This document shows, piece after piece, positions 39,919 to 59,346 of a stretch of 64,000 nucleotides of DNA. Under the pieces are notes generated by a model. That model was not told the origin of the DNA and made no database searches. It worked only from the letters and a program-made list of their open reading frames with translations. The stretch is taken from assembly GCF_000504285.1 (NCBI RefSeq), contig NZ_KI632511.1, positions 7,112,154 through 7,176,153 on the forward strand, read 5' to 3'. A program made the translations under genes and the position numbers. Source of the DNA: Actinospica robiniae DSM 44927. Its GTDB lineage: Bacteria; Actinomycetota; Actinomycetes; Streptomycetales; Catenulisporaceae. Every line of letters begins with the position of its first letter. Positions within the stretch are counted from its first letter, which is position 1.

Positions 39919-39965
39919 CCGCACCCACGCGGATCGCAGGCGCAATGACGCGTGCAGGAGGACCA

Positions 39966-42900: not shown

Positions 42901-43505
42901 GGAACGCCAATTACCTGACGTTCGCGTCGGCCAGCGGCGGAGTCTCGCTCGCCAGCACCTTCAACAATGTGGCGATCACCGCGGACAACAACACCGCGGC
43001 CGGCAACTTCGACGGCGGCAACGCGAGTTTCTCCGAGACCGCGCTGACCAACGCCGGCGCGGGTCCGGGCGCGCAGGTCGCCTCGAACGGCGTGACGTAC
43101 ACGTTCCCCAATGTCGCGGCCGGTGCGAACGACAACACGGTGGCCGAGGGGCAGGTCGTCTCGGTGTCCGGCAGTGCCGCGGATCTCGGGTTCCTGGTGT
43201 CCGCGAGTTACGGGCCGGCCACCGGTACCGGAACGATCACCTATACCGATGGCAGCATCCAGACTTACACGATCACTGTGCCTGACTGGTTCGCCACGAC
43301 CGCGCCGACCGGCGGCGCGGTCGCGATCAACTCCACCTATCAGAACAGGCAGGGCAACACGACCTACGCGCACACCGCCGACGTCTTCTCGGTGAACGTG
43401 GCACTCACCGCGGGCAAGACCGTGGCCTCGGTGGCCCTGCCGGCCGGATCCGCGCTGGCCGCGGGCACGCCGGCGATCCACGTCTTCGGCCTCGCGCTGA
43501 GCTGA
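39966..43505 (+). CDS. Large secreted GH95-like glycosidase with carbohydrate-binding module
   Basis: Exported protein of 1179 aa. A signal peptide (hydrophobic LGAGLGVALIAALAVAGG, then TAAAA) is followed by an N-terminal beta domain with SRSDVVLGAAN. A helical barrel follows at about residues 280-700 (YDEDQQDWYPAGYWLWNLRG, AHETQWAVTDPTTDLVADQ), which resembles GH95 alpha-fucosidase/galactosidase (alpha/alpha)6 barrels. A CBM6/35-like module begins VPGTVQAENYDTGGQG at about residue 840, and a C-terminal beta domain of about 180 aa follows. GTG 39966 is preferred to ATG 39945 because AGGAGG (39956-39961) is 4 nt upstream. The sugar ABC operon follows. Confidence 0.72.
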   Translation: MLTRTRPRHPVLGAGLGVALIAALAVAGGTGTAAAATLTTAWQNGAFSMNIGGVVSRSDVVLGAANTAASQSMPLGNGSLGVAAWAANGFTAQLNRSDTMPNRLSPGQLNIPGLSAMTSASNFTGHLDVYNGVLDESGGGMTLQAWVPAGKDELVVEVTGAAANAAESATLSLWSGRSPSTSSSGAYAALAQTWVDNSQTGNSGQTFGAMAAITAGGANVTGSVVNSTQVKVSFNASSTGSYSVVVAAPKWTGGTATSTASSLIGSDTSTAASTLLATQSSWWNNYWANTGLIEANSSDGSAQYMENLRTLYLYDEAASMKSGAYPGSQAGVADMFAYDEDQQDWYPAGYWLWNLRGQIAANLSSGAFADNVPIFNMYLNDLPAIESWTSAQMGGKAGACVPETMRFNGNGYYNGGSNSSNASCATASSPSYNAEDITSGAELALWIWQQYLDTGSTSFLQTYYPILEQTATFLLAWQSVGSDGFLHATANAHETQWAVTDPTTDLVADQALFPAVVQAATILGTDSSLVSQLKTAENEIEPLPRVSTSNLSSLLNAQPTTASAVASLDASGNDAIGDSYQPSATLRNGENIGLEAVWPWGVIGDSTTVNGDNLTALANRTYNSKPNTDSNDWTFDAVDAARLDNGSAVSSNLVTETEKYQYYIDGLAAFSPSSTDEPYIEQSSTVATALDEALATDYDGTIRFAPAWPSGWDGSGTVYIRGGSKVDVQVESGTLATAAIQAGTTGTLSVRNPWSGSQAEVVNGSTGAVVVAATTAATLSVPVTAGSTYLVEQPGNLTTSLGFVQVTGTQATTYKKLGGIAQIGLPGNSGSAEAPYGGTAATVPGTVQAENYDTGGQGVAYSVSSVNGSANSYRSDGVDLEATSDTNGGDDLGWTSGGQWFKYTVKVATAGTYTLNLRLAAPNAVTDGLHISNSSGSNLSGNINVPSTGGYQTWTTVSANVTLPAGTQTLTLNEDNGGWNANYLTFASASGGVSLASTFNNVAITADNNTAAGNFDGGNASFSETALTNAGAGPGAQVASNGVTYTFPNVAAGANDNTVAEGQVVSVSGSAADLGFLVSASYGPATGTGTITYTDGSIQTYTITVPDWFATTAPTGGAVAINSTYQNRQGNTTYAHTADVFSVNVALTAGKTVASVALPAGSALAAGTPAIHVFGLALS

Positions 43506-43519
43506 CGCCCCGCAGGAAA

Positions 43520-43553
43520 GCGGCGGTGGGACGCCTGATCGTCCCGCCGCCGC
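43520..43553 (+). terminator. Terminator after the GH95-like gene
   Basis: GCGGCGGTGGGAC (43520-43532) pairs with GTCCCGCCGCCGC (43541-43553), 13 bp with one G-T wobble and an 8-nt loop. It separates the glycosidase from the ABC operon. Confidence 0.75.
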
Positions 43554-43639
43554 TATCCGTTGCCCGAAGATCGGAGGCCTGAGTTTCCCCCGCAATCTTC
43601 GATGAGACTTCGATCGGCAAGTGGTTCATGGGTTTTTGA

Positions 43640-43668
43640 TTGACGCACTGATTCATCGGATCTATCGT
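43640..43668 (+). promoter_or_regulatory. Promoter of the sugar ABC operon
   Basis: -35 TTGACG (43640-43645), 17-bp spacer, -10 TATCGT (43663-43668), in a locally AT-rich stretch about 56 bp before the lipoprotein start. Confidence 0.65.
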
Positions 43669-43724
43669 GATGCCCACCTCGCCCGGATGACGACTCCGGG
43701 CTTCGATGACCACCGGAGGTCTCG

Positions 43725-44891
43725 ATGCGAGCACGTCGGCAAGCCGCTCTCTTCGCAGCGTGCATATCCGCTGCCACCCTGGCAATCGGGGGCTGCTCCT
43801 CCAAGGCTCCTGGATCTTCGAACGCCACCTCCGCGGCCGGCAACAGCGGGCCGATCAAGATCGGCGTTTCGTTGACGTACAACAACACGGCTTTCTGGGC
43901 GGCGTACATCCAGTACGAGCAGCAGTACGCGAGTCAGGACGGGGTGCAGCTGCTCGGTCCGGAGCTGGCCCAGGCGGACGCGTCGTTGCAGAACCAGCAG
44001 ATCGAGACATTGGTGAACGAGGGCGCGAAGGCGATCATCGTGAACCCGGAGACCGCGACGAGCCTCGGCCCGGCGATCTCTTATGCGGCGGCGCACAACG
44101 TGCAGCTGGTGTCGGTGGACACGATCGTGGGCACGGGCCACGTGTACATGGTGGTGCGGGCTTCGAACACGCTGTACGGCCAGGACGCCTGCGCGTACAT
44201 CTCCTCGAAGGTCAAGTCAGGGTACGTGCTCGATCTTGAGGGCGATCTGACCTCCTCGAACGGCGCGGACCGCACCAATGCGTTCAATGACTGCATGGCG
44301 GCGAACGACCCCGGGGTCAAGCTGCTGAAGGACCCGACGGTGTGGACCGAGTCGACTGCGGTGACTGACGCGCAGAACGCGCTGAACGCGTACGGCAGCC
44401 AGCTGAAGGCGATCTACTCGCAGTGGTCGAGCCCTGACACGGGCATCCTGCCGTTGTTGGCGAAGAAGGGCTACGGCAAGGTCGGCGACGCGAACCACGT
44501 CATCATGGTCAGTGACGACGGTGTCGCCTTCGAGATGTGCGACATCCAGCAGGGCACCCTGGACGCTTCGCAGTCGCAGCCGGCGGACCTGTACGCGAAG
44601 TACGCGCTGCAGTACGCGATCGACGCCGCGAAGGGTGTGAAGCTCTCCGCCGGTCAGCCCGGTGGCGGCGCGCCGACGCTGCAGAACGTCACCTACAACG
44701 GCGACACGAACCTGGCCGACCCGATCGTGGCGCCATTCGTCACCAACGACACGCTGAACCTGAACCTCGCCTCCCCGGTGGACTCGCTGCCCGGCTCGCT
44801 GACCACGACCGCGGTGAGCGACTCGAGCCTGTGGGGCAACGTCTACGGCGCGGCACACGGCGGTGTGTGCTCGTCCGGCGCCAACTCATGA
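43725..44891 (+). CDS. Sugar ABC transporter substrate-binding lipoprotein
   Basis: Lipoprotein of 388 aa. The lipobox AIGGC places the lipidated cysteine at about residue 24, followed by a Ser/Gly/Asn linker. The body is a type 1 periplasmic-binding fold (RbsB/Peripla_BP_4): IKIGVSLTYNNTAFWAAYIQ, then ETLVNEGAKAIIVNPETATS, then VSVDTIVGTG. It binds a sugar outside the membrane and delivers it to the permease. The stop overlaps the ATPase start by 4 nt. The substrate is unknown; the flanking glycosidases suggest a plant-derived sugar. Confidence 0.9.
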   Translation: MRARRQAALFAACISAATLAIGGCSSKAPGSSNATSAAGNSGPIKIGVSLTYNNTAFWAAYIQYEQQYASQDGVQLLGPELAQADASLQNQQIETLVNEGAKAIIVNPETATSLGPAISYAAAHNVQLVSVDTIVGTGHVYMVVRASNTLYGQDACAYISSKVKSGYVLDLEGDLTSSNGADRTNAFNDCMAANDPGVKLLKDPTVWTESTAVTDAQNALNAYGSQLKAIYSQWSSPDTGILPLLAKKGYGKVGDANHVIMVSDDGVAFEMCDIQQGTLDASQSQPADLYAKYALQYAIDAAKGVKLSAGQPGGGAPTLQNVTYNGDTNLADPIVAPFVTNDTLNLNLASPVDSLPGSLTTTAVSDSSLWGNVYGAAHGGVCSSGANS

Positions 44892-46522
44892 CCACTGAGC
44901 TCACCCCGGCTGTTGAGGCGCGCGGGATCCACAAGAGCTACGGCTCGACCCGCGCGCTGCGCGGGGTGGATCTCGCGCTTGCCCCGGGCCGGTGCCTCGG
45001 GCTGGTCGGGCGCAACGGCGCCGGCAAGTCCACCATGGTCTCCATCCTCTCCGGCCTGCAGCGGCCGGATGAGGGGGAGGTCACCTTCGACGGCGAGGCC
45101 GCGCCCCCGGCGGGCGCGGTGCACGCCTGGCGGCGCAAGCTCGCCACGGTCCATCAGCACTCGATGATCGTGCCCGAACTCACCGTCGCCGAGAACGTCT
45201 TCTTGGGCCGTCTCCCGCACCAGCGCGGCAAAGTCGACTGGCGCGCGGTGAAGGCGGAGGCCGCGGAGGTGCTCGGTGAGTGGGGCAGCGGCGTGAACCC
45301 GGCCAGGGCCTGCCGCGACCTGTCCGTGGAACAGCGCCAGATCGTGGAGTTGGCGCGGGCGGTAGCGTCCGGCACCAAGGTGCTGCTGCTCGACGAGCCG
45401 ACCGCGGCCCTGGAGCGCGACGCGGTGCTGCGGCTGTTCACGAGAGTCCGCCAGCTGGTGGACTCCGGCGTGGCAGTGCTCTACATCTCGCACCACCTCG
45501 AAGAAGTCTTCGACATCTGCGACGAGGTCGCCGTGCTGCGGGACGGCGAGCTCGTGCTCGCCGCCCCCACGGCCGATCTCAGCACTGATGGCCTGGTCAA
45601 CGCGATGGTGCACGGCCACGTCGGCGGCCCCACTGAAGCCGAGCTCGCCTATCAGGTTTCGCATACGTCGGTGGAAGACCTGCCGGTGCACCCGGAGACG
45701 GCGAACGAGGCCGCGGCCGGCCCCGTACTCGAACTGCGCTCGCTCACTGCCAAATCAGAGCACGGCGATCTCAACGGCGTATCGCTCACGGTCGCGCCGG
45801 GTGAGAGCGTCGGCGTGGTCGGCCTGATCAGTTCCGGCGTGGTCACCCTCGGACGGATAGCGGCCGGGATCGACCCCGGAGACGGCGGCGGCCTGCTCGT
45901 CGACGGCGCCGCGCTGGCCGGTGGTGACCGCGCTGCCGCGCTCGACGCCGGTGTCGGCTACATCCCCGAGGATCGACGCGCCGCCGGATTCGTCGGCGGC
46001 CTGTCGATAGCCGAGAACATGACCATGTCGATCACCGACCGGCTCTCCGCCGGGAAGTTCGGCGTGCTCCGACGGCGCGCGGTGACCGAGGCGGCGGAGC
46101 CATGGGCGGAATCGCTTGCCCTGGTCGCTTCCTCGCTCGGTCAGCATGTGTCCGATCTGTCCGGCGGGAACCAGCAGAAGGTGACCGTGGCCAGGGCGCT
46201 CGCCCGGGACCCGAAGCTGGTGGTCGCGATCACCCCGACGCGGGGTGTGGACGTGGCCTCGAAGGAGTTGCTGCTGCGGGCTTTGCGCCGGGCGGCGGAC
46301 GCCGGGGCCGGGCTGTTGCTGGCCACCGACGAATTGGACGACCTCGCGTACTGCGACCGCGTTTTGGTGATCGCGCGCGGGCGGGTCGTGGCCGAGGTAC
46401 CCGGCGGCAGCCGATTCGACCGCACCGCGATGATCGCCACGATCGAGGGCGTCGCCGGCACCTCGATCGCCTCCGATGCCGCCGGCGACGGTGCGCGGCC
46501 AGAAGAACCAGGAGATGCTTAA
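44888..46522 (+). CDS. Sugar ABC transporter ATP-binding protein (RbsA-like)
   Basis: Protein of 544 aa with two ABC domains. Domain 1 is complete: GLVGRNGAGKSTMVS, LSVEQRQIVELARAVA, VLLLDEPTAAL. Domain 2 (from about residue 285) is degenerate: GVVGLISSGVVTLG in place of Walker A, an intact LSGGNQQKVTVARALA, and VVAITPTRGVDVAS where the DE of Walker B is lost. A degenerate second Walker A is normal in RbsA-type proteins; the loss of the DE pair is less usual. ATG 44888 overlaps the lipoprotein stop (ATGA). The permease GTG follows directly after the stop. Confidence 0.9.
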   Translation: MTTELTPAVEARGIHKSYGSTRALRGVDLALAPGRCLGLVGRNGAGKSTMVSILSGLQRPDEGEVTFDGEAAPPAGAVHAWRRKLATVHQHSMIVPELTVAENVFLGRLPHQRGKVDWRAVKAEAAEVLGEWGSGVNPARACRDLSVEQRQIVELARAVASGTKVLLLDEPTAALERDAVLRLFTRVRQLVDSGVAVLYISHHLEEVFDICDEVAVLRDGELVLAAPTADLSTDGLVNAMVHGHVGGPTEAELAYQVSHTSVEDLPVHPETANEAAAGPVLELRSLTAKSEHGDLNGVSLTVAPGESVGVVGLISSGVVTLGRIAAGIDPGDGGGLLVDGAALAGGDRAAALDAGVGYIPEDRRAAGFVGGLSIAENMTMSITDRLSAGKFGVLRRRAVTEAAEPWAESLALVASSLGQHVSDLSGGNQQKVTVARALARDPKLVVAITPTRGVDVASKELLLRALRRAADAGAGLLLATDELDDLAYCDRVLVIARGRVVAEVPGGSRFDRTAMIATIEGVAGTSIASDAAGDGARPEEPGDA

Positions 46523-47572
46523 GTGACCCAGACCCAGCAACCAGCGCCCAAGGCCGCGCCGGCCACGCCCGCCCGGCTTGGCGTGCGCGGCCCGGTGGCC
46601 CTTGGTTTTGTGCGTGAGGCGGCGTTGCTGCCGGTGCTCGTTGTGATCCTGGTGGTCGGGGCGGTGATCAGTCCGGTGTTCCTGACCGCGGACAACCTGA
46701 TCTCCGGGGTGGGCCAGCAGGTCTCCGCGCTCGGGATCACCGTGGTCGGCGAGAGCCTGATCCTGTTGATCGGCGGGATGGACCTGTCCCTGGAGTCCAC
46801 CTACGGCCTGGCCCCGATGATCGCGGCGTGGTTGATCGTGCCCAAGGCGGCGTTCGGTTCCGGGCTGATGCTCAACCCGGTGATCGGGATCCTGATCGTG
46901 TTCGCGATCGGTGCGGCGGTGGGCCTGGTCAACGGCCTGCTGATCGTCAAGGCGCGGTTGAACGGGTTCATCGTCACGCTCGGGATGACGGTGCTGCTCG
47001 CCGGTCTGCAGAACGGCAGTGTCCAGGGCCAGTCCCCGTATCAGCTGCCCTCGGCGTTCAGTTACATCGGGGCGGAGTTCATGGGCAAGGTCCCGGTCTC
47101 CCTGGTGGTCGCGGCGATCGTGTTCATCGCGGCGGGTCTGTTCCTGCGGTATCACCGTACCGGCCGGGCGATCTACGCGATCGGCGGGAACGCGGAGGCG
47201 GCGCGTGCCGCCGGGATCCGGGTGGACCGCATCAAGATCGGCGTGTATGTCGCCGGGTCGGTGCTCGCGGCGCTCGGTGGTCTGATCGAGGCCGGCCGGG
47301 TCTCCTCGGTCACCGGGGACCAGGGCTACCAGGAAGGGATCATCTTCACGGTCTTCGCCGCGGCGGTGATCGGCGGGGTCTCGCTCCAGGGCGGCAAGGG
47401 CACGATGCTCGGGGCTGCCAGCGGCGTGATCCTGCTCGGCCTGGTCCAGAACATCATCAACCTCTCCAACGCCCCGAACTACTGGCAGCTGGCCATCAAC
47501 GGCGGCGTCATCCTCTTCGCCCTCGTCCTCGCCCGCGTCGTCGGCGGAGAATCCTCAGCCGAAAAAGCCTAG
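46523..47572 (+). CDS. Sugar ABC transporter permease (RbsC-like)
   Basis: Membrane protein of 349 aa with about eight to ten helices of the branched-chain/ribose permease family. Typical segments are LILLIGGMDLSLEST, NGLLIVKARLNGFIVTLGM, and the ATPase-contact region AIGGNAEAARAAGIRVDRIK. GTG 46523 begins immediately after the ATPase stop, with the ribosome site AGGAGA inside the ATPase gene. One permease gene with one double ATPase makes a complete importer as a homodimer. Confidence 0.92.
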   Translation: MTQTQQPAPKAAPATPARLGVRGPVALGFVREAALLPVLVVILVVGAVISPVFLTADNLISGVGQQVSALGITVVGESLILLIGGMDLSLESTYGLAPMIAAWLIVPKAAFGSGLMLNPVIGILIVFAIGAAVGLVNGLLIVKARLNGFIVTLGMTVLLAGLQNGSVQGQSPYQLPSAFSYIGAEFMGKVPVSLVVAAIVFIAAGLFLRYHRTGRAIYAIGGNAEAARAAGIRVDRIKIGVYVAGSVLAALGGLIEAGRVSSVTGDQGYQEGIIFTVFAAAVIGGVSLQGGKGTMLGAASGVILLGLVQNIINLSNAPNYWQLAINGGVILFALVLARVVGGESSAEKA

Positions 47573-49121: not shown

Positions 49122-50843
49122 ATGGACGGGCACCGGCACAGTGACGTCGCCTGGCGGGTGAGGGTCGACGACGCGGAGGAGAACACGCACGGAGCCGGGA
49201 TCCTGCTGAGCGACCGGCACGTGCTCACCTGCGCGCACGTGGTCGCCGATGCGGGCGCCGCTCCCGGCGGCCGGTTCTCGCACGTGCGGATCTCCAGCAC
49301 CATGTGCCACCCGGACTGGAGCATCCCGGCCCGGCTGAGCCCGGACTCGTGGGTCTACCGCAACGGCACCTGGCGCGGTGACGTCGCCCTGCTCGAACTC
49401 GATGAGCCCACACCCTGCGGCGCGGCCACCCGGCTGTCCCGGGCACCCGTCTCCGGCGGCCTGGTGCGCTTGTACGGATTCCCGGCGTGGGAGCCGAGAT
49501 TCGGGCTGCCGGTCGTCGCGCGGCTGGCCGGCGCCGGCGGCCGTGAGGGGGAGTGGGCGGGCCTGAGCCGGGTCGAGCCGAACGGGCAGTGGCTCCAGGA
49601 GGGCTACTCCGGCTCCGGCGCGCTGGCACTCGACGGCGAGTTCGAGGGCCGGGTGATCGGCCTGGTGGCGCGGGCCTACGTCGATCCCGAGACCAACGAC
49701 AAAGCCGGCTGGATGCTGCCCACCGAGACCGTTCTCAGCTATCTGCCACAACTCGCGCAGTACGTGGACGGCGAGCAGACCAGCGTGCTGCCGGAGCTCG
49801 AATCCGCCGCCCCGGACCGGGCCCTGGACGACCCGCTGCGCCTCGCCCTGACCCAGGAGCTGACGAAGCTGCTCATCGGGCCGTGGGCGGGCACGGTGGT
49901 GCTCACCGGCGGGGCCACCCAGACCGGCACCTCCTGGCTGGTGCGGCTGGTGCGCACGGCCGACCCCGCGACCCGTCCGAAGACCACCGACATCGAGCTG
50001 TCCCGGGCCCCGCGGGACACCGTGCTGGGCTTCGGCACCGTGGACGCGGCGTACGACGCGGGCCGCAAGTCGCTCGCCGAGGTGCGCACCTACCTCGCCG
50101 ACCGGCTCGGCTTCCGGCCCGGCGAGCCGGACGTGCTCGGCCGGCTGCTCCGCCGCAAGCCGCCGGCCTGTCTGGTGATCGCCGCGGTCGACCGGGCCGC
50201 CGACCCGGACGAGTTGATCGGCGAGCTGCTCGGGCCGCTGGCCCGCCGGGCCTGGTCCCGCGGCATCCGGCTGGTCCTCGGCTTCGACGCCGGGCCGCCC
50301 GAGGACCTGCACCACGAGGTCTCGCTCGGCCCGGAGCTGGCGACCGGCCGCCTGCACGGATCGGCCCTCCGCGCCGAGGCCGAGCAGGACATCGCAGGAC
50401 TCGGTCAGGCCGAGGCGGATGCCGGTGCCCTGCAAGCCAAATGGGGTCTGCGCTACGTCGGCACGCCGCAGTTGCCGCGGCTCGTCGCCCCCCGGCTGCG
50501 GGTGCAGCTCGCCATCGCCGGCCGGGCGGATCCGAACCCTGAGTTCGCCCGGATCCGAGACCAGGCCGAGGCGGCGCTGCACGCGGTTCGCCGCTATAGC
50601 CGGCAGATGCACCGCATGCTCGACACCTGGGAAGACCTGAGCGCCGAGCTGAAGGTGCAGCGGGTACGCGCCGAGCGCTTCTTCGGCGCCGAGGACGTGG
50701 ACCTGATGCCGTTCCACGACACGGCCTCCGAAGCGTTGTGGAACGCGCCGATCGATCTGACCGTCGCGGCCGGAGCCATCCGCCGCTATGCCGACGAGGT
50801 CGACCGGCGCCGAGCGGAAGGTGAGGAGGGAGCGCCGCGATGA
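49122..50843 (+). CDS. Trypsin-like serine protease fused to a degenerate P-loop domain
   Basis: Protein of 573 aa without signal peptide, so cytoplasmic. Residues 1-225 are a trypsin-like peptidase with an apparent triad: H39 (LTCAHVV), D87 (RGDVALLEL) and S163 (EGYSGSGAL). The C-terminal part looks like a STAND-type NTPase core whose Walker A is broken (LTGGATQTGTSWL, Thr in place of Lys) with a hydrophobic Walker-B-like strand CLVIAAVDRAAD, then a helical tail. The fusion suggests a regulated intracellular protease. The kinase start overlaps its stop by 4 nt. The start is fixed by the leaderless -10 box. Confidence 0.8.
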   Translation: MDGHRHSDVAWRVRVDDAEENTHGAGILLSDRHVLTCAHVVADAGAAPGGRFSHVRISSTMCHPDWSIPARLSPDSWVYRNGTWRGDVALLELDEPTPCGAATRLSRAPVSGGLVRLYGFPAWEPRFGLPVVARLAGAGGREGEWAGLSRVEPNGQWLQEGYSGSGALALDGEFEGRVIGLVARAYVDPETNDKAGWMLPTETVLSYLPQLAQYVDGEQTSVLPELESAAPDRALDDPLRLALTQELTKLLIGPWAGTVVLTGGATQTGTSWLVRLVRTADPATRPKTTDIELSRAPRDTVLGFGTVDAAYDAGRKSLAEVRTYLADRLGFRPGEPDVLGRLLRRKPPACLVIAAVDRAADPDELIGELLGPLARRAWSRGIRLVLGFDAGPPEDLHHEVSLGPELATGRLHGSALRAEAEQDIAGLGQAEADAGALQAKWGLRYVGTPQLPRLVAPRLRVQLAIAGRADPNPEFARIRDQAEAALHAVRRYSRQMHRMLDTWEDLSAELKVQRVRAERFFGAEDVDLMPFHDTASEALWNAPIDLTVAAGAIRRYADEVDRRRAEGEEGAPR

Positions 50844-53032
50844 GATGCAACCGTCCCGAATGCGGTCGTGGCGAGATCGACGACGAAGGGTTCTGCACGG
50901 TCTGCGACATGCCGCCGGTGTCTGTGCCCGCACCAACTCCGCCCGCGCTCCCGCGCGAGAAGCCGCGCACGCCCGCCGCTGCGTCGGAGCCGGCCGGCCC
51001 CGCCGGGAAGGTCGGGGTGGCACAGGTCCGACCGGACCCATGGTGGGGCCTGGCCCTCGCCCGTACCGACCTCGTCCCGCCCGAGGAAGACGTGGACCCG
51101 GACGCGCCGCCGAGCGAGTCGCATCGCTACTGCGCGAACCCCGCCTGCCCGGCGCCGGTCGGGCGCGCCGGCGCTGACGGATCTCCCGGCCGGCTCAAGG
51201 GATTCTGCCCGGAGTGCGGCGACGCCTTCGACTTCACCCAGCCCTGGACCGGACAGGTCATCGCCCGGCGCTACGAGGTCAAGCGCGTGCTCGGCGCGGG
51301 CGGCCAGGGCAAGACGTACCTCGTGCGCGACCGCAATCTCGACGCGGACGTGGTGGTCAAGTCGCTGTGGCGCCCGAAGGACGAGACCGGCAGGCTTGAG
51401 CGCAACGCCCTGGTCGGCCTGCGCCACGACAGCATCGTACGGATCCTGAGTTACGAGCCGGACGAGCCGTACGAGCTCAACGGCCCCTACCTCGTACTCG
51501 AATACGTGCCCGGTTCCCGGCTTTCGGCCCGGCCCGAGGAACCTCTCGACGTCATCCTCGGCCACGGCCTGCAGATCCTGCAGGCCCTCGACTACCTGCA
51601 CGCTCGCGGCCTGCTGCACTGCGACGTGAATCCCTCGAACGTCATGCGGTTCGCCGAGCCGACCGGGGACGGGATCCGCGACCGGGTGCGGCTGATCGAC
51701 TTCGGCGCCGTGCGCACGCTGGCCGACACGACCCCGGTCAGCGTGTACACCGCGCCCTTCGCGCCGCCCTCGTCGGAGGGCGTGCGCGGGCCCGACCCGG
51801 AGATGCTGCGGCCCACCCGCGGCTTCGACCTGTTCTGCCTCGGCCGGACGCTGCAAGAACTCTGCCGCGAACCGCTGCGCGATCGGGTCACCGACCCGGG
51901 CGTCGACGCATTGAACCGTTTGCTGCTGCGCGCCACTGACGTCACCGTGCCCGCGCGCCGCTTCGTTACCGCGCGCCAGTTCGCCGAGCAGCTGAGCGGG
52001 GTGATCCGGCAGGTCGTCGCGGCGCCGCCGGAGGGCCGACGGGTGACCAGGCCCTCGATGCTGTTCGGTTCGATGACCGAGTCGCTGCACGGCGGTCTCG
52101 GCGCCCCGCGCCCGATCGCACACTGGGTCGAGGCGCGGCTCAGCTCGCCCCGGGCGTTGCAGATCGCGCAGCCGTTCAGCTTCCCGCGGTATCAGGACAT
52201 TGTCGCAGCGCTGCCGATGCCGCTGGAGGATCCGGACGACGATCCGCGCGAGGCCGAGCGGATCCGCAGCGTGCTCGCCGCCTGCCGCGCCGAGCTGCGC
52301 CGCGGGTCGGCCGACGAGTCGGACGACGTGCTGAGGCAGGCCGCGTTGCCGGATTGGCACTGGCTGCGCGGCTGGTACGACGGGCTGATCTCGCTAGTCC
52401 GGCAGCGGCCGCAGGAAGCCGCCGCGAACTTCGGATCCGTGCGCGACATGCTGCCCGGCGAGCTCATCCCGCTGCTCGCGCTCGGGCTGTGCGCCGAGTT
52501 GGCCGGCGATCCGGTGGTGGCCCGGCTGCACTACCAGACGGTGTCCGACACGGCCCCCGCGCTCGGCGCCGCCGGCTTCGGCCTGGCCCGCGCGCTTCTA
52601 CTGATCGGGCATCGCGGCCAGGCGGTGGCGGTAGCCGACCGGCTGGCCCAGGAATTCCGCTTCGAACGCGAGGCCTCGATCGCGGCGATCAGACTCCTGA
52701 CTGCCTGCCCGGAGCCACCCGGCGCCGAGGCGTTGCCCCCGCCGGACGAGGCGGACCTGCGCCACGCCGAGGAGCGGCTAGGCGTCCTCGACGTGGACGA
52801 GCGCGTAAGGACTCTGATGGAGGTGGAGATCCAGCACGCGCGCTTCCGGGCCGGCGGCGAGACGATGGACCTTTCCGACCGGATCCGGGAGACCGCGCAG
52901 CATGCGCTGATCGAGCGGGACTTCGTGGCCATGGTGGATCTGGCCAACAAGCTGCGTCCGCCGATCGAATGGCGGCTGCGCGGAATTCCGCCGAGAATGG
53001 GCGATTCCGGCCGCATCAAGCACGAGAACTGA
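50840..53032 (+). CDS. PknG-like serine/threonine protein kinase
   Basis: Kinase of 730 aa. The N-terminus has a zinc ribbon (C3, C8, C19, C22) and a second Cys set in CANPACP ... CPECGDAFDF. The kinase domain runs from about residue 145: glycine loop LGAGGQGKTYLVRD, lysine in DVVVKSLW (about 172), catalytic loop HCDVNPSNVMR (about 260) and LIDFGAVR. The rest is helical and TPR-like. Zinc site, kinase and TPR in this order, and the HCDxNPxN loop, match PknG rather than membrane PknB-type kinases. It overlaps the protease gene by 4 nt (ATGA). Confidence 0.9.
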   Translation: MRCNRPECGRGEIDDEGFCTVCDMPPVSVPAPTPPALPREKPRTPAAASEPAGPAGKVGVAQVRPDPWWGLALARTDLVPPEEDVDPDAPPSESHRYCANPACPAPVGRAGADGSPGRLKGFCPECGDAFDFTQPWTGQVIARRYEVKRVLGAGGQGKTYLVRDRNLDADVVVKSLWRPKDETGRLERNALVGLRHDSIVRILSYEPDEPYELNGPYLVLEYVPGSRLSARPEEPLDVILGHGLQILQALDYLHARGLLHCDVNPSNVMRFAEPTGDGIRDRVRLIDFGAVRTLADTTPVSVYTAPFAPPSSEGVRGPDPEMLRPTRGFDLFCLGRTLQELCREPLRDRVTDPGVDALNRLLLRATDVTVPARRFVTARQFAEQLSGVIRQVVAAPPEGRRVTRPSMLFGSMTESLHGGLGAPRPIAHWVEARLSSPRALQIAQPFSFPRYQDIVAALPMPLEDPDDDPREAERIRSVLAACRAELRRGSADESDDVLRQAALPDWHWLRGWYDGLISLVRQRPQEAAANFGSVRDMLPGELIPLLALGLCAELAGDPVVARLHYQTVSDTAPALGAAGFGLARALLLIGHRGQAVAVADRLAQEFRFEREASIAAIRLLTACPEPPGAEALPPPDEADLRHAEERLGVLDVDERVRTLMEVEIQHARFRAGGETMDLSDRIRETAQHALIERDFVAMVDLANKLRPPIEWRLRGIPPRMGDSGRIKHEN

Positions 53033-53070
53033 TACGCTGGCCGATCAGCGGAACCTGGGACGGGTCGGGG

Positions 53071-54576
53071 TTGGGAACGTTGAGGGAACCTGAGCTGCGC
53101 TTCGACGCGCGCGGACTGCGGTTCACCGTGGAGGTCTTCGGCACCGAGGACCTGCCCTTGGACGCCAAGCGTCTGGACGTGCTGCTGACCGTGCGCAGCC
53201 ACGCCGACGCCCGGACGCCCCCCGATCGAAGCCCCTTCGCCGAAGTGCTCGTGATGGACCGCTCGCTCTCGATGGCCTCGGCGGGCAAGATGGGCGAGGC
53301 GAAGCGGGCGGCCTGCGCCGCCGTGGACGCGCTGCCGGATGGCTCGTATCTCGCCGTCGTCGCGGGCAATCACGAGGCCTCGGTGCTCTTCCCGCTCGCC
53401 GGCGGCCTCATTCGGGTCGATCCGGCGACGCGGCGCGCGGCTAAGGAGCGCATACGAGGCCTGACGCCCCGGGGTGGGACCAGGATCGGCCGCTGGCTGC
53501 GCCGCGCCGATGAGCTGTTCGCCGCGGTGGACGCCGGAATCGTGCGCCACGCGGCGCTGTACACCGACGGCCGCAACGAACACGAGACTGCGCAGGAACT
53601 CGACGCCGCGCTCGCGGCGTGCGCGAACCACTTCGTCTGCGACGCGCGCGGACTCGGCGAGGACTGGAACTACGCCGAGCTGCTGCGGATCACCGAGGCC
53701 CTGCACGGCGCGGCCGGAGCCGTCATCGAGGTTTCTGATCTGGCCGAGGACTTCGCCGCGCTGATGGCCGACGTACGGCGTCTGGTAACGCCGAGGGTCT
53801 ACCTCGGGCTGCATCTCAACGAACGATTCGAGCTCGGATTCGTCCGGCAGTCCCGGCCGATCGAGGTGGACCTGACCGCGCAAGCTCAGCACGAGGGCCA
53901 GGACGTGCAGGTGCCGCTGGGTTCCTGGGCGGCCGAGACGCGCGAGTACCGGCTTTCGCTGCGGGTCGATCCGGACCGCCTGGAGGTCGGCCAGCAGCTG
54001 CGGGCCCTCCGCGTGACCATGCTGGCCGACGCGGCGGACGGCACCCGTGAGCCGCGTTCCGAGACGGTCTCGGTGCGAGCGCGTCGCCTCGCCACGGCCG
54101 ATGCCCCGGGGCCGCAGTCCGCGCCGTTGACCAGAGAAGAACGCATGCACGACCTGGGCATGGCGATGCGGGCGTGCGCGAAAGCCTTCGTGGACAAGCG
54201 TTTCGCCGTCGCGGACCGGGAACTGCGCGAGGCGATCAGGCTAGCCCGGGCCCTCGGCGCCACCGAACGGCTGCGGCTGCTCGAATCCCTCGCCCTCGTC
54301 GGCGAGGACGGCGCGCTGGTGGTCGACCCCAAGAAGCGCGCGCTCATCCAACAGCTCGGTATCGAGTCCACCCATACCGGCCCGGTGCCGGAGGATCTGC
54401 TGCGGGACACGGACGTCCCCGCCGCGCCGCTCACTCTCTATGCCCGGCTGATATCCCGAGTCTGCCCGCAGTGCGGGGAGACCACCACCGGGCTGAAGGT
54501 GCGGATCTGCGAGAGCTGCGGGCACCGGTTCGCCGCCGCTGCCGACCACGACGACGATGCGGGTGGTCCGTCGTGA
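53071..54576 (+). CDS. von Willebrand factor A-domain protein with C-terminal zinc ribbon
   Basis: About 501 aa, cytoplasmic. The VWA domain has an intact MIDAS: VLVMDRSLSMAS (D-x-S-x-S), a threonine in GGTRIGRWL, and ALYTDGRNE. It is followed by a beta-sandwich-like region and a helical part. The end is a zinc ribbon, CPQCGETTTG ... CESCGHRF, echoing the ribbon of the kinase. The start is uncertain: no ATG or GTG exists near the conserved N-terminus, and TTG 53071 or TTG 53080 with a G-rich upstream stretch is the best choice. Its stop overlaps the next GTG. Confidence 0.8.
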   Translation: MGTLREPELRFDARGLRFTVEVFGTEDLPLDAKRLDVLLTVRSHADARTPPDRSPFAEVLVMDRSLSMASAGKMGEAKRAACAAVDALPDGSYLAVVAGNHEASVLFPLAGGLIRVDPATRRAAKERIRGLTPRGGTRIGRWLRRADELFAAVDAGIVRHAALYTDGRNEHETAQELDAALAACANHFVCDARGLGEDWNYAELLRITEALHGAAGAVIEVSDLAEDFAALMADVRRLVTPRVYLGLHLNERFELGFVRQSRPIEVDLTAQAQHEGQDVQVPLGSWAAETREYRLSLRVDPDRLEVGQQLRALRVTMLADAADGTREPRSETVSVRARRLATADAPGPQSAPLTREERMHDLGMAMRACAKAFVDKRFAVADRELREAIRLARALGATERLRLLESLALVGEDGALVVDPKKRALIQQLGIESTHTGPVPEDLLRDTDVPAAPLTLYARLISRVCPQCGETTTGLKVRICESCGHRFAAAADHDDDAGGPS

Positions 54577-55535
54577 CGCGGCTCGGGCGTTTCCCGCGCG
54601 CGGTCTCGCGCTGGTCGGCGCGCTCCCTCCGGGACCTGCGCGCCAGCCACCCGGTAAGAGTCCTGCGGATCATGCGCAACCTCATGCTGGCCGCCGTCGT
54701 CAGCACCCTGCTCCTCTGCTTCGGCACAGCCGTGGTGGCCCACCATCGGATCTCCGCCGCCATCCAGACCGAGCGGGCGATGGCGGACGTCGCCGACGCG
54801 CAGAGCACGGTGCAGAAGGCGAGCAACGAGCTGTACGCGGCCTTCCATCAGGGCGACCCGTCACTGACCGGCACAGGCACGGCCTTCGGCACCGACACCG
54901 CCAAAGCGGCGCAGGACCTCGCCGATGCAGTTCGAGACAGCGACGCCGCCGGGGTGCGCGGAGAACAGGAGCTCTCGTTCGTCCAAGGCCAGCTGCAGGT
55001 CTGCGAACGGCTGGCCGATGCCGCAGTGCTCGAATACGCCGAGGTGCGCGACCCCGACGTGGTCACCTCGCCCACCGGATGCCTGACCGACCACGACCAG
55101 ACGACGGCTTCCGGCGCCCGCCTGCCGGACACCGGCGGCCTGACCGCCGCGCTCCTCGACCTCAGGCAGTTGGAGGAGGAGACGTTGACTGCCCAGCAAA
55201 CCTCGTTCTGGCTGCACCCGCTGCGTTTCGTCGGGCTGCTGCTCGCGCCGACGATCGTCATGCTGGCCCTGCTGATCGGCACGGCCGGCCTGCTTGCCCG
55301 GCACTTCCGCCGCTTCATCAGCCCTCTGCTTCTCGCGGCGGCGGCCGACTCCGCGATCGTCGCCGTCGTCCTCAGCATCCTGAGCGCGGCCGACGACGGG
55401 CGCCTGTCCGCGAATCCGTGGACAGCGCATCCGGTGACGATGGCGGTCGAGGGCGTCCTGCTCATCGGGGCGTTGCTGCTGATCTACTTCGGCTACCGCC
55501 CCCGCCTGGCCGAGTACAGGTTCCGCCCGCGATGA
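54573..55535 (+). CDS. Four-helix membrane sensor-like protein
   Basis: Protein of 320 aa. A basic N-terminus precedes one transmembrane helix (about residues 33-55, LMLAAVVSTLLLCFGTAVV), an extracytoplasmic helical domain of about 120 residues with two cysteines, and three more helices (about 190-215, 225-248, 268-290). This layout resembles chemoreceptor-like ligand domains and the GlnX protein that couples a solute-binding lipoprotein to PknG in mycobacteria; homology was not tested. GTG 54573 overlaps the VWA stop (GTGA), and the lipoprotein ATG overlaps its own stop. Confidence 0.72.
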   Translation: MTRLGRFPRAVSRWSARSLRDLRASHPVRVLRIMRNLMLAAVVSTLLLCFGTAVVAHHRISAAIQTERAMADVADAQSTVQKASNELYAAFHQGDPSLTGTGTAFGTDTAKAAQDLADAVRDSDAAGVRGEQELSFVQGQLQVCERLADAAVLEYAEVRDPDVVTSPTGCLTDHDQTTASGARLPDTGGLTAALLDLRQLEEETLTAQQTSFWLHPLRFVGLLLAPTIVMLALLIGTAGLLARHFRRFISPLLLAAAADSAIVAVVLSILSAADDGRLSANPWTAHPVTMAVEGVLLIGALLLIYFGYRPRLAEYRFRPR

Positions 55536-56812
55536 ACACGAGAATGAAGAAGACTGCGATCGCGCGCGGCGCCGCGGCACTCGGCCTGCTCATCGCGGCG
55601 GCCGGCTGCGGCACGGCCGCGCAGACCAGCGCGCAGGTGACCATCATGGTGCCCTGGAGCGGCACCGAGTTCGACGCGTTCTACCGCGTCATCCAGGACT
55701 TCCAGAACTCCACTCACATCCACGTGAACGTGGAGGTCACCCGCGCCCAGACGGAACAGCTCGCCGCGGCCGTGGGCGCCGACGCCCCGCCCGACCTGGC
55801 CGTGCTGCCGAGCGTCGGCGAGGTGGACCAGGACGCGAAGGCGGGCGCGCTCCAGCCGATCCAAGGCGTCGCGTCGAGCGACTTCCTCGAGCCCTTCAGC
55901 GGCCTGATGACCGTCGACGGCAAGGTCTACGCCGTACCCGTCAAAGCCGACGTCAAAAGCCTGATTTGGTACGATCCGCAATACACGGCGGCGCCGCCCG
56001 CCGACGTGTCCGGGCTGCAGACGCTCGCCGCCGGTCATAGCGGATTCTGGTGCCTGGGCGTGGAATCCGGACCGACCTCGGGCTGGCCGGGCGCCGACTG
56101 GATCGCAGACCTCTACCTCGCGAAGAACGGCACGACCGCCTACGAGAACTGGCTGACCGGCACGTCGGCGCAGTGGCAGACGGTCAGGGGCGCCTGGACC
56201 GAGTGGGCGGACCTGGTCGACGGCAGCACCAAGAACGCCGCGACCACCCCGTTCGGCGATGCCGCCGCCGGAATGACCGCGAACAGCCGCCCGAGGTGCG
56301 AACTCGCGCACGGCGCACTGGCCGCCATGGCCTTCTCCAGCGACCTCAAGCCGGGAAAGGACTACGACTTCGTCGCCCCGGCCTCGTCCACCCCGCTCGA
56401 AGTGTCCGCCGACTTCCTGGGCATGTTCACCAGGGACAATCCCGCCGCGGTCACGCTGATGCAGTACCTCACGAGCAAGTCCGCGCAGATCGCATGGGTC
56501 AAGGGCGACGGCTACGCCTTCTCCGCGAACAAGGAGGTGCCGAACGACGTCTACCCCGGCCCGGTGGAGCAGCGCATCGCCGGCCTGCTGCGGCCGAGCT
56601 CCGGCCACCCCCTGTGCTTCGGCGCCGCGGACATGATGACGCCCGACATGTCCACCGCGTTCTACCAGGCCGTCATGAACTTCGTGGAAGCGCCGACCCC
56701 GCGCGACCAGACGATCACCGGCCTGCTCGACGGCCTGCAGACCAGCCAGACCAGCCAGCCCTCTGACACCCCGCAGATCAGCCCCGGCGCGATCTGCTCC
56801 AGCCCGAGCTGA
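55532..56812 (+). CDS. Extracellular solute-binding lipoprotein without transporter
   Basis: Lipoprotein of 426 aa with lipobox AAAGC and lipidated C26. The mature part is a family 1 (MalE-like) solute-binding fold: VTIMVPWSGTEFDAFYRVIQ, PPDLAVLPSVGEVDQDAKAG, and VYAVPVKADVKSLIWYDPQ in the hinge region. No permease or ATPase gene is adjacent, so a sensing role with the membrane protein just upstream is more likely than import. ATG 55532 overlaps that gene's stop by 4 nt. The Thr/Ser/Gln-rich tail ends with a cysteine. Confidence 0.85.
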   Translation: MNTRMKKTAIARGAAALGLLIAAAGCGTAAQTSAQVTIMVPWSGTEFDAFYRVIQDFQNSTHIHVNVEVTRAQTEQLAAAVGADAPPDLAVLPSVGEVDQDAKAGALQPIQGVASSDFLEPFSGLMTVDGKVYAVPVKADVKSLIWYDPQYTAAPPADVSGLQTLAAGHSGFWCLGVESGPTSGWPGADWIADLYLAKNGTTAYENWLTGTSAQWQTVRGAWTEWADLVDGSTKNAATTPFGDAAAGMTANSRPRCELAHGALAAMAFSSDLKPGKDYDFVAPASSTPLEVSADFLGMFTRDNPAAVTLMQYLTSKSAQIAWVKGDGYAFSANKEVPNDVYPGPVEQRIAGLLRPSSGHPLCFGAADMMTPDMSTAFYQAVMNFVEAPTPRDQTITGLLDGLQTSQTSQPSDTPQISPGAICSSPS

Positions 56813-56825
56813 CCCGGGAGCCGCT

Positions 56826-57149
56826 ATGCCCGAAATCGTGGAGTTCACCCTCGCCGACGGCGCGAAGGTGGCCGTGAGCCCGGCCCGCCCGCGCGGCGGC
56901 AGCACCCCCATCGGCCTCGGCGAGCGGATGGAGGTGGCCGAGAAGACGCTGCGCCAGGCCATCGCCCCGGTCACCGCGGCCGCCGCCGAGATGCTCGAGG
57001 ACTTCCGCCGCCTCGCCCACCCCGACGAGGTGGAGATCTCCTTCGGCGTCGCGCTGGACGGCAAACTCGGCGGCATCATCGTCGGCGCCAGCGCCGGCGC
57101 CCACCTCGAGGTCAAGCTCCGCTGGCGGCCGGTCAAGGCAGAGGACTGA
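56826..57149 (+). CDS. Trypsin-co-occurring (CU044_2847 family) protein
   Basis: Protein of 107 aa. The beta-rich start MPEIVEFTLADGAKVAVSPA and the end VEISFGVALDGKLGGIIVGA, joined by a helix (MEVAEKTLRQAIAPVTAAAA), match the small family that co-occurs with trypsin-like peptidases in actinobacteria (trypco domain 1). It follows the lipoprotein by 13 nt with GGGAG upstream. Its presence ties the end of this operon to the protease gene at its start. It is thought to bind or regulate the protease; no direct evidence is visible here. Confidence 0.82.
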   Translation: MPEIVEFTLADGAKVAVSPARPRGGSTPIGLGERMEVAEKTLRQAIAPVTAAAAEMLEDFRRLAHPDEVEISFGVALDGKLGGIIVGASAGAHLEVKLRWRPVKAED

Positions 57150-57244: not shown

Positions 57245-58300
57245 ATGGCACTGCCGGTCACGCCCCCGATCGAGCCGATGCTCGCGAAGTCCGCGGCCAC
57301 CGTGCCCACCGGCGGATACCTCTACGAGCCCAAGTGGGACGGCTTCCGCTGCCTGATCTTCCGCGACGGCGACGAGATCGAGCTCGGCAGCCGCGGCGGC
57401 AAATCCCTCACCCGCTACTTCCCCGAGCTGGTCCGGTCCCTGGCCGAGGCGCTGCCGCCGCGCTGCGTGCTGGACGGTGAGATCGTCGTCGTCCAGGGCA
57501 GCCGGCTCGACTTCGACCGGCTCTCCGAGCGCATCCACCCGGCCGAATCGCGCATCAAGCTGCTGGCTGAGCAGATCCCTGCCACGTTCGTGGCCTTCGA
57601 CCTGCTCGCCCTCGACGACGAGGACCTGACGCACCGTCCGCTGATCGAGCGGCACGAAGCGCTCAGCCGCCTGTTCGCCGACCGCTCGCACCCGCACGTG
57701 CGCGTCTCCAACGCCACCGAGGACGTCGACCTCGCCCGGACCTGGTTCGAGACCTTCGAAGGCGCCGGCCTGGACGGCGTCGTCGCCAAGCGGCTCGAGG
57801 ACCCCTACCGCCCCGGCGAGCGCAGCATGGTGAAGATCAAGCACGAGCGCACTGCCGACGTCGTCGTGGCCGGATACCGCTTCCACAAGTCCGGCCCGAT
57901 CGTCGGATCCCTGATGCTCGGCCTGTACCTCGAAGACGGCGTGCTCAATTACGTCGGCGGCGCCAGTGCGTTCACCATGGCCCGCCGTGCCGCGCTGATC
58001 GACGAACTCGCCCCGCTCGTGCTCGAAGAGGGCGCCGAGCACCCCTGGCTCGGCGAGGACGACGGCGCCCATCGGCGCCCCGGCGCGCTCAACCGCTGGA
58101 ACTCGGCCAAGGACCGCTCCTTCGTGGCGCTGCGCCCCGAGCGAGTGTGCGAAGTGCGCTACGACCAGCTGCAAGGCGACCGGTTCCGGCACAACGCGCG
58201 GTTCGTGCGGTGGCGCAACGACCGCGAGCCCGGCTCCTGCGGATACGACCAGCTCGACGTGCCGGCCGACTACGATCTCGCCGACGTGCTCGGCGCGTGA
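57245..58300 (+). CDS. ligC: ATP-dependent DNA ligase, LigC-type
   Basis: Ligase of 351 aa. The adenylated lysine is in EPKWDGFRC (about K30). Other nucleotidyltransferase motifs are SRGGKSLTRYF, VLDGEIVVV, TFVAFDLLAL, and GLDGVVAKRLEDPYRPG ... MVKIKHERT, followed by an OB-fold. It resembles the short LigC ligases of actinobacteria linked to end-joining or short-patch repair. It converges on a LigD-type polymerase gene 14 bp away, a LigC/PrimC-like pairing. No ku gene lies in the window. Confidence 0.92.
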   Translation: MALPVTPPIEPMLAKSAATVPTGGYLYEPKWDGFRCLIFRDGDEIELGSRGGKSLTRYFPELVRSLAEALPPRCVLDGEIVVVQGSRLDFDRLSERIHPAESRIKLLAEQIPATFVAFDLLALDDEDLTHRPLIERHEALSRLFADRSHPHVRVSNATEDVDLARTWFETFEGAGLDGVVAKRLEDPYRPGERSMVKIKHERTADVVVAGYRFHKSGPIVGSLMLGLYLEDGVLNYVGGASAFTMARRAALIDELAPLVLEEGAEHPWLGEDDGAHRRPGALNRWNSAKDRSFVALRPERVCEVRYDQLQGDRFRHNARFVRWRNDREPGSCGYDQLDVPADYDLADVLGA

Positions 58301-58314
58301 CCTGGGTTCGGTCG

Positions 58315-59346
58315 TCAGTCCGTCTGCCGGGCCTTCGACGGCTGCACCCGCTTCGGCTCGCCGGGCATCTTCGGAAACTCGGGCGGATAGGGCAGATCCC
58401 CGAGGCCCCGGTCCTGTTCATCCCGCTCGGCCATCTCCAATAGCGCGTCCAGCGTCGCGGCCGACTCGTCGATGGCGTTGTGCGCGTCCCCGCGTGAGGC
58501 CAGCAGCCCCGGCACGGTACGCACGGTGAAGTCCTCCGGCGTGACGTCGCCTAAATCGCTCCAGCGCACCGGCATCGAGACCCGGGCATCGGGCACCGCG
58601 CGGGTGGAATAGGCGGCGGCCAGCATCCGGTCGCGGGCCATCTGGTTGAAGTCGACGAAGATCTGCGCGTTGCGCTCCTCCTTCCACCACGACGTGGTGA
58701 ACAGCGCGGGCCGCCGCCGCTCGAGCTCCCGCGCGAGCGCGATCACCGCACGCCGAGTGGAGATGAACGACCACCGCGGCTCGATCCGCACCAGGACGTG
58801 CAGCCCGCGCCCGCCGGAAGTCTTCACGAACGGCACCATGCCCAGCTCCGTCAGCAGCGCCCGCGCCTCCATCGCCGCCTCGACCACCTCGGCGAATTCC
58901 GTGCCCGGCTGCGGATCGAGGTCCAGCCGCAGCTCGTCCGGGTGGTCCGTGTCCTCGCGCCGCACCGGCCAAGGATGCAGCTCCAGCGCGTTCATCTGCA
59001 CCGCCCACACCACCGTGGCCGGCTCGGTGACGCAGACCTCGTTGCCCGTGCGCCCGCTCGGAAAGGTGACCTTCACGGTCTGCAGCCAATCCGGCAGCCC
59101 CTTGTTCGGAGCATGCTTGGTGTAGAACGAGTCGCTCGCGCCCGGATCCGCCCCCAGCCCGCGCGGAAAGCGATGCAGCGCCATCGGCCGCCCCGCCAGC
59201 GCCCGCATCAGCCCCTCGCCCACCGCGACGTAGTACTCGGCGACCTCCAGCTTCGTCACCCCGACCGCCGGGTAGCAGACCCGCTCCGGCGAGGACACGC
59301 GCACGCTGCGCCCCGCCACCTCGACGAAGGTCTCGCTGCTGCTCAT
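58315..59346 (-). CDS. LigD-type polymerase/primase (archaeo-eukaryotic primase fold)
   Basis: Stand-alone PolDom of 343 aa. The metal-binding acids are in LRLDLDPQPG, the SGGRGLHVLV motif follows, and a third acid is probably in FVDFNQMARD; HRFPRG and FYTKHAP are LigD-polymerase hallmarks. The enzyme adds nucleotides or ribonucleotides at break ends before ligation. It lies opposite the ligase gene, the separated-domain version of LigD. The last 30 residues are Pro/Lys-rich. ATG 59346 starts at the conserved N-terminus. Confidence 0.92.
   Translation of the reverse strand: MSSSETFVEVAGRSVRVSSPERVCYPAVGVTKLEVAEYYVAVGEGLMRALAGRPMALHRFPRGLGADPGASDSFYTKHAPNKGLPDWLQTVKVTFPSGRTGNEVCVTEPATVVWAVQMNALELHPWPVRREDTDHPDELRLDLDPQPGTEFAEVVEAAMEARALLTELGMVPFVKTSGGRGLHVLVRIEPRWSFISTRRAVIALARELERRRPALFTTSWWKEERNAQIFVDFNQMARDRMLAAAYSTRAVPDARVSMPVRWSDLGDVTPEDFTVRTVPGLLASRGDAHNAIDESAATLDALLEMAERDEQDRGLGDLPYPPEFPKMPGEPKRVQPSKARQTD

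Follow-up and report, generated by a model that had tools for sequence, protein, structure and literature searches.

A conserved gene cluster combining a PknG-type kinase, a tethered solute-binding protein and a trypsin-like protease in Actinospica robiniae and related bacteria

Why should a trypsin-like protease be encoded together with a PknG-type kinase and a solute-binding lipoprotein (SBP)? The question is raised by six co-directional open reading frames at positions 49122-57149 of a 64,000-nucleotide stretch of the Actinospica robiniae genome (hereafter, the window; Table 1). All six frames are intact, and the successive gaps between them are -4, 38, -4, -4 and 13 nt. Checks of open reading frames and domains upheld the six genes and the gene-by-gene reading given in a preliminary description of this DNA; the gene coordinates also stood, except that the start of the VWA gene is unsure (TTG at 53071 or 53080). 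We found no permease or transport ATPase gene within the six-gene cluster. Upstream, at window positions 39945-47572, lie ordinary carbohydrate uptake genes, namely a gene for a GH95-like glycosidase with CBM6 followed by those for a sugar-type ABC transporter (Peripla_BP_4, BPD_transp_2). Just downstream (57245-59346), an ATP-dependent DNA ligase gene faces a LigD-type primase-polymerase gene, making up a split LigD set.

Table 1. Genes of the cluster, their positions in the window and the domain matches that identify them.
Gene product	Position	Strand	Domain evidence
Three-domain trypsin-like protease	49122..50843	+	Trypsin_2, 36.8 bits (Pfam)
PknG-type kinase	50840..53032	+	PknG_rubred, Pkinase and PknG_TPR (Pfam)
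VWA protein	~53071..54576	+	VWA_3, 48.1 bits; VWA_2; weak zinc ribbon
GlnX-like 4-TM membrane protein	54573..55535	+	Weak NCBIfam GlnX match, E 0.0065; no confident Pfam family
Solute-binding lipoprotein (SBP)	55532..56812	+	SBP_bac_8, 68.9 bits (Pfam)
Trypco1 protein (optional sixth gene)	56826..57149	+	PF19493, 72.9 bits; CU044_2847, 58.9 bits

Among 60 relatives, five gave close, full-length matches to the window kinase (53-59% identity), all from another family of the order; where inspected, the remaining matches (~33-41% identity) were canonical PknG or belonged to a more distant cluster type. The five genomes with close kinases contained the full set in unchanged order, with Trypco1 missing only in one of them (L046). 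With the protease as query, 128 genomes of the order yielded 12 further three-domain proteases, which showed ~26-30% identity to the window protein over the full alignment and at most 39% in local matches. Downstream of all 12 lay kinase, VWA, GlnX-like and SBP_bac_8 genes, without Trypco1. Outside the window, all 17 full-length proteases therefore lay in the order protease-kinase-VWA-GlnX-SBP, at protein identities of 26-59%, and these five genes form a conserved unit, as the proposed operon had implied. Far from co-occurring rarely, the genes were found together in 17 further clusters, and because these share the order, we rejected a chance assembly of six genes. The 4-nt overlap between the VWA and GlnX genes was kept in nearly all clusters. 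The genes flanking the clusters were not shared between genomes, which sets the cluster boundaries. We refer to the window-like clusters (six, including that of the window) as clade A, to the 12 distant clusters as clade B and to the canonical loci as C.

The distribution, as judged from samples of 128-129 genomes, was patchy: the cluster occurred in 17 of 128 sampled genomes of the order (~1 in 7) and was otherwise absent from the window's own family. When 129 genomes from the phylum and 128 from the class were sampled, full-length proteases proved confined to the same order, and matches outside it covered the trypsin domain only. Plasmids yielded no protease match and no close kinase, and a search of genome contigs with the window kinase returned two remote kinases only. 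We also observed a reduced cluster (L084:8165-12962) comprising genes for a PknG-TPR kinase without rubredoxin, a GlnX-like protein and an SBP_bac_8 protein, in which no protease or VWA gene was detected.

The kinase carries an N-terminal zinc ribbon, a rubredoxin domain, a kinase domain and a PknG TPR domain in a single chain. Its three Pfam matches were above cut-off, with the TPR match spanning 92-279 of 340 positions, and residues 81-708 gave a full-length alignment with Mycobacterium tuberculosis PknG (2pzi; E 1.9e-48), confirming the PknG-type architecture that had been proposed. The catalytic Lys, Asp and Asn and the Asp of DFG are all kept. The catalytic loop of the window protein reads HCDVNPSN. 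Here, and in no other copy, Asn replaces the Lys of HxDxK that lies two positions beyond the catalytic Asp; because of this replacement, the window kinase may be weak or inactive. Neither an FHA substrate gene nor a phosphatase gene was found within the cluster, which leaves the output of the kinase a guess.

The same genome encodes a second, canonical PknG (C1:8.07 Mb), whose locus reads glnX-glnH-hel-pknG-PP2C-VWA-FHA (L007:5615-15024; G000:C1 ~8065.6-8075.0 kb); the published operon is given as glnX-glnH-pknG (PMC6069109, PMC8546545). This seven-gene order was kept in all 14 relatives fetched, and canonical pknG was immediately preceded by hel, which encodes a helical protein without a Pfam family, in 15 of 15 loci. 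The canonical GlnH belongs to SBP_bac_3, and the PP2C and FHA proteins, which we named by sequence motifs and not by Pfam, both carry zinc ribbons. This locus also encodes a VWA protein, of which that of the window is a paralogue (37%, E 2e-39, tblastn). The VWA gene is therefore not an extra, being a regular component of the extended PknG locus in these bacteria. The MIDAS of the window protein is intact, with DxSxS, T and D kept and invariant across clades, and a C-terminal zinc ribbon is present in nearly all copies of clades A and B and absent from canonical copies.

A second connection to the canonical locus emerged from the protease, which consists of a trypsin-like domain (residues ~8-215), an alpha/beta middle domain (~235-405) and a helical C-terminal domain (~413-570). 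Trypsin_2 was present in 18 of 18 homologues, and the triad H39, D87 and S163 was invariant across the 18 sequences of both clades. In the AlphaFold model, the trypsin domain matched PR3 with a Z of ~20 (2.8 A over 191 residues), and the remainder was divided between the alpha/beta middle domain and a long, helical C-terminal part. The window protease has no hydrophobic segment and is therefore predicted to be cytoplasmic. Profile comparison matched the last 160 residues of the protease family to the hel C-terminus (P 1.3e-16, against 0.016 for the reversed control), and each clade alone gave the same match (A, 5e-9; B, 7e-15). This homology means that the fusion ties the protease to the PknG module. 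Judged by homology, the VWA gene and the protease C-terminal domain derive from the canonical locus, the latter from hel. The middle domain had been described as a degenerate P-loop domain, a reading that we could not sustain: the GGATQTGTS of the window protein differs in clade A and is absent in clade B, and a profile comparison with one sequence found no match to nSTAND1. An assignment of this domain to the STAND or P-loop NTPases is accordingly not supported.

Trees of the kinase and of the VWA protein recovered the same three groups, A, B and C, with the window copy as the longest branch in clade A. Both trees were midpoint-rooted with a long A branch, and that of the VWA protein was a quick tree; with midpoint rooting only, they do not establish A and B as a single clade. 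That A and B are one clade is suggested by features that they have in common, namely the protease fusion, SBP_bac_8, the zinc ribbon of the VWA protein and the loss of PP2C and FHA.

The membrane protein proved to be a homologue of GlnX, as had been supposed. Profile comparison of window-type with canonical GlnX gave P 1.2e-13 across 214 columns, against 0.006 for the reversed control; with clade B alone it reached 1.5e-12, and with clade A alone a modest 1.3e-5. Moreover, nearly all copies of both types share the tail R-L/I-x-E-Y-R straight after the last TM helix (window 55475-55532), making this tail a candidate for docking to the PknG TPR domain. The TM helices of the window protein (37-55, 217-235, 252-270 and 288-306) leave one periplasmic domain, whereas canonical GlnX has two, and the loop between TM3 and TM4 measures ~17 residues compared with ~155 in canonical GlnX. 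The predicted structure was helical (pLDDT 79); a Foldseek search with this model returned weak matches (E>0.3), chemoreceptor ligand-binding domains among them, which we did not count as evidence.

The SBP of the window has an intact lipobox (...AAAGC), and the protein is tethered in every cluster, through a lipobox with its lipid Cys in clade A and, for most clade B members, through an N-terminal TM anchor. It was correctly described as an SBP without transporter genes. The comparison with GlnH did not hold, since the protein belongs to SBP_bac_8 and is nearer to oligosaccharide binders than to GlnH. An invariant motif, W-C-x-G...TSGWPG-x-DW, runs through the family. The closest solved relatives are sugar or chitin-oligosaccharide binders, matched weakly (best E 4e-8) and without fixing the ligand, which is probably a sugar or oligosaccharide. 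The genome contains no paralogue of this SBP at E<=1e-6, and on this ground we rejected its being borrowed from a transporter.

Taken together, these homologies identify the cluster as a paralogous, rewired PknG module in which an oligosaccharide-type SBP takes the place of GlnH, PP2C and FHA have been lost, and a trypsin domain is fused to the C-terminus of hel. Trypco1 stands at the operon end opposite the protease. Its pairing with a trypsin-like protein was borne out in five of six clade A clusters, and it was not found in the 12 clusters of clade B; because it is optional, the core cannot require it.

In mycobacteria and corynebacteria, GlnH binds Asp or Glu, there is a functional link to GlnX, and PknG depends on its TPR domain (PMC6069109), which has been proposed to bind GlnX (PMC8546545); the mechanism as published is set out in PMC6069109, PMC9769921 and PMC8546545. 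Receptor, relay and kinase are kept in our cluster by homology, the sensor has been exchanged and the protease has been joined through a hel-derived domain, and from this we infer an outside-in pathway in which the PknG relay of the rewired module controls a cytoplasmic protease, a reading to which we give an even chance. Gene order, homologies, catalytic residues, the fusion and the outline of membrane topology are observed; the ligand class, every protein contact, the direction of control and the effect on the cell are what we propose as follows. On binding an extracellular ligand, the tethered SBP would act on the GlnX-like protein at its periplasmic helical domain, and the short cytoplasmic tail (RLAEYR) of this receptor would hand the signal on to the kinase at its TPR domain, in line with the model for GlnH-GlnX-PknG. 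The cytoplasmic protease, which may dock through its hel-derived C-terminal domain, would in turn be controlled by the kinase; the VWA protein, inherited from the ancestral locus, could serve as a peptide-binding partner, and Trypco1, where present, could tune the protease. The net effect would be that an outside ligand switches intracellular proteolysis. A more specific version, in which the ligand, through the SBP and the GlnX-type receptor, switches the trypsin-like protease on via the kinase, making a receptor-to-protease cascade with intracellular proteolysis as its output, we put forward tentatively. The L084 cluster, which has the kinase, GlnX and SBP genes but neither protease nor VWA, argues against the outside-in reading.

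A role in defence or cell death had also been suggested, in which the SBP and GlnX-like protein would sense an invader or extracellular cue and the protease and Trypco1 would act as a suicide or anti-phage effector. What argues for it is the trypsin/Trypco1 pairing together with the patchy distribution (17/128 in the order, and otherwise missing from the window's own family). In the passages of Kaur et al. 2020 on these proteins, Trypco1-trypsin pairs are proposed as effectors in VMAP systems (PMC7159879). Indeed, the same genome encodes a 1437-aa trypsin-nSTAND1-WD40 protein with an overlapping Trypco1 gene of its own and an adjoining SpoIIE-type phosphatase gene (L008:2460-8592; G000:C1 ~1032.5-1038.6 kb), which looks like a predicted conflict locus; the trypsin domain of this protein (1.036 Mb) is homologous to that of the window protease (profile comparison, P 6e-18). 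However, the input side of our cluster is a solute sensor, its proteins are well conserved in sequence and not variable, and Trypco1 has been lost from one clade A cluster and is absent in clade B. No MoxR AAA+ or VMAP protein was found among the six genes, whose flanks are unconserved, and EAD and nuclease parts are likewise missing; PADLOC gave only a generic match for the kinase and weak ones for the protease. Specific support for defence or cell death did not go beyond the protease-Trypco1 pairing, which predicted conflict systems also use, and we consider this role doubtful.

The direction of control could also be reversed, with the protease resetting the signal by trimming or degrading the kinase, VWA or GlnX-like protein in place of PP2C, and with phosphorylation of a protein encoded elsewhere as the true output. 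Such an arrangement would account for the canonical PP2C and FHA genes missing from the cluster, and the protease does sit where hel is found in the canonical locus, immediately before the kinase gene. It is unlikely, however, given that a large three-domain protease is conserved in every such cluster except the reduced one and that nothing points to cleavage of any cluster protein. Very improbable is decay in the window's organism, leaving reduced kinase activity and a cluster that no longer signals: the Lys-to-Asn change and the long branch of the window copy fit it, but the six frames, protease triad, MIDAS and lipobox are intact, the operon junctions are kept, and tyrosine kinases are active without this catalytic-loop Lys.

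Of the overall interpretation that we started from, the PknG, GlnX and tethered-SBP assignments, the conservation and the Trypco1 pairing thus remain, and none of the outcomes named as refuting it turned up. The P-loop domain is not supported, Trypco1 is optional, VWA is a component of the canonical locus, the SBP is nearer to oligosaccharide binders than to GlnH, and defence has no specific support beyond the Trypco1 pairing. PknG has been studied as a drug target and metabolic switch, and the cluster bears on how its TPR domain communicates with GlnX and on the roles of hel and VWA. As a naturally occurring paralogue with an exchanged sensor and a hel-fused protease, the cluster marks a portable core of SBP, GlnX with its EYR tail and TPR kinase, and it offers direct tests of the GlnX tail as a docking peptide and of the hel C-terminus as a kinase partner. 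If true, the outside-in reading would be a rare link of extracellular sensing to a cytoplasmic trypsin-like protease.

We found no paper describing the six-gene set among open-licence publications, and the passages of Kaur et al. on Trypco, kinases, vWA and peptidases contain no PknG/SBP system (PMC7159879). What comes nearest is a single sentence on the Streptomyces kinases SGR_4432 and SCO1468, which resemble our cluster in the linkage of Ser/Thr kinase and SBP genes, with no protease, VWA or Trypco1 reported (PMC6069109). As presented in the passages mentioned above, the Trypco1-trypsin pairs of VMAP/nSTAND systems share a trypsin-like domain with a neighbouring Trypco1 gene and a VWA protein; unlike them, the window cluster lacks MoxR and VMAP, has a PknG-type kinase with intact catalytic Asp residues and an SBP/GlnX sensor, and treats Trypco1 as optional (PMC7159879). 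The extended canonical locus contains homologues of the window kinase, VWA protein, GlnX (with matching tail) and protease C-terminal domain, but it has no protease or Trypco1, an amino-acid-type SBP, PP2C and FHA, and another gene order. With the GlnH-GlnX-PknG operon of M. tuberculosis and Corynebacterium glutamicum (PMC6069109, PMC9769921), the cluster shares a rubredoxin-kinase-TPR protein, a GlnX homologue and a tethered SBP without transporter genes. By contrast, its SBP is of the SBP_bac_8 type and not the amino-acid-binding SBP_bac_3, its GlnX has one periplasmic helical domain where the known GlnX has them in tandem (PMC9769921), it has no gene for an FHA target of the OdhI/GarA type, and it includes protease, VWA and Trypco1 genes, in an organism that also keeps its canonical PknG.
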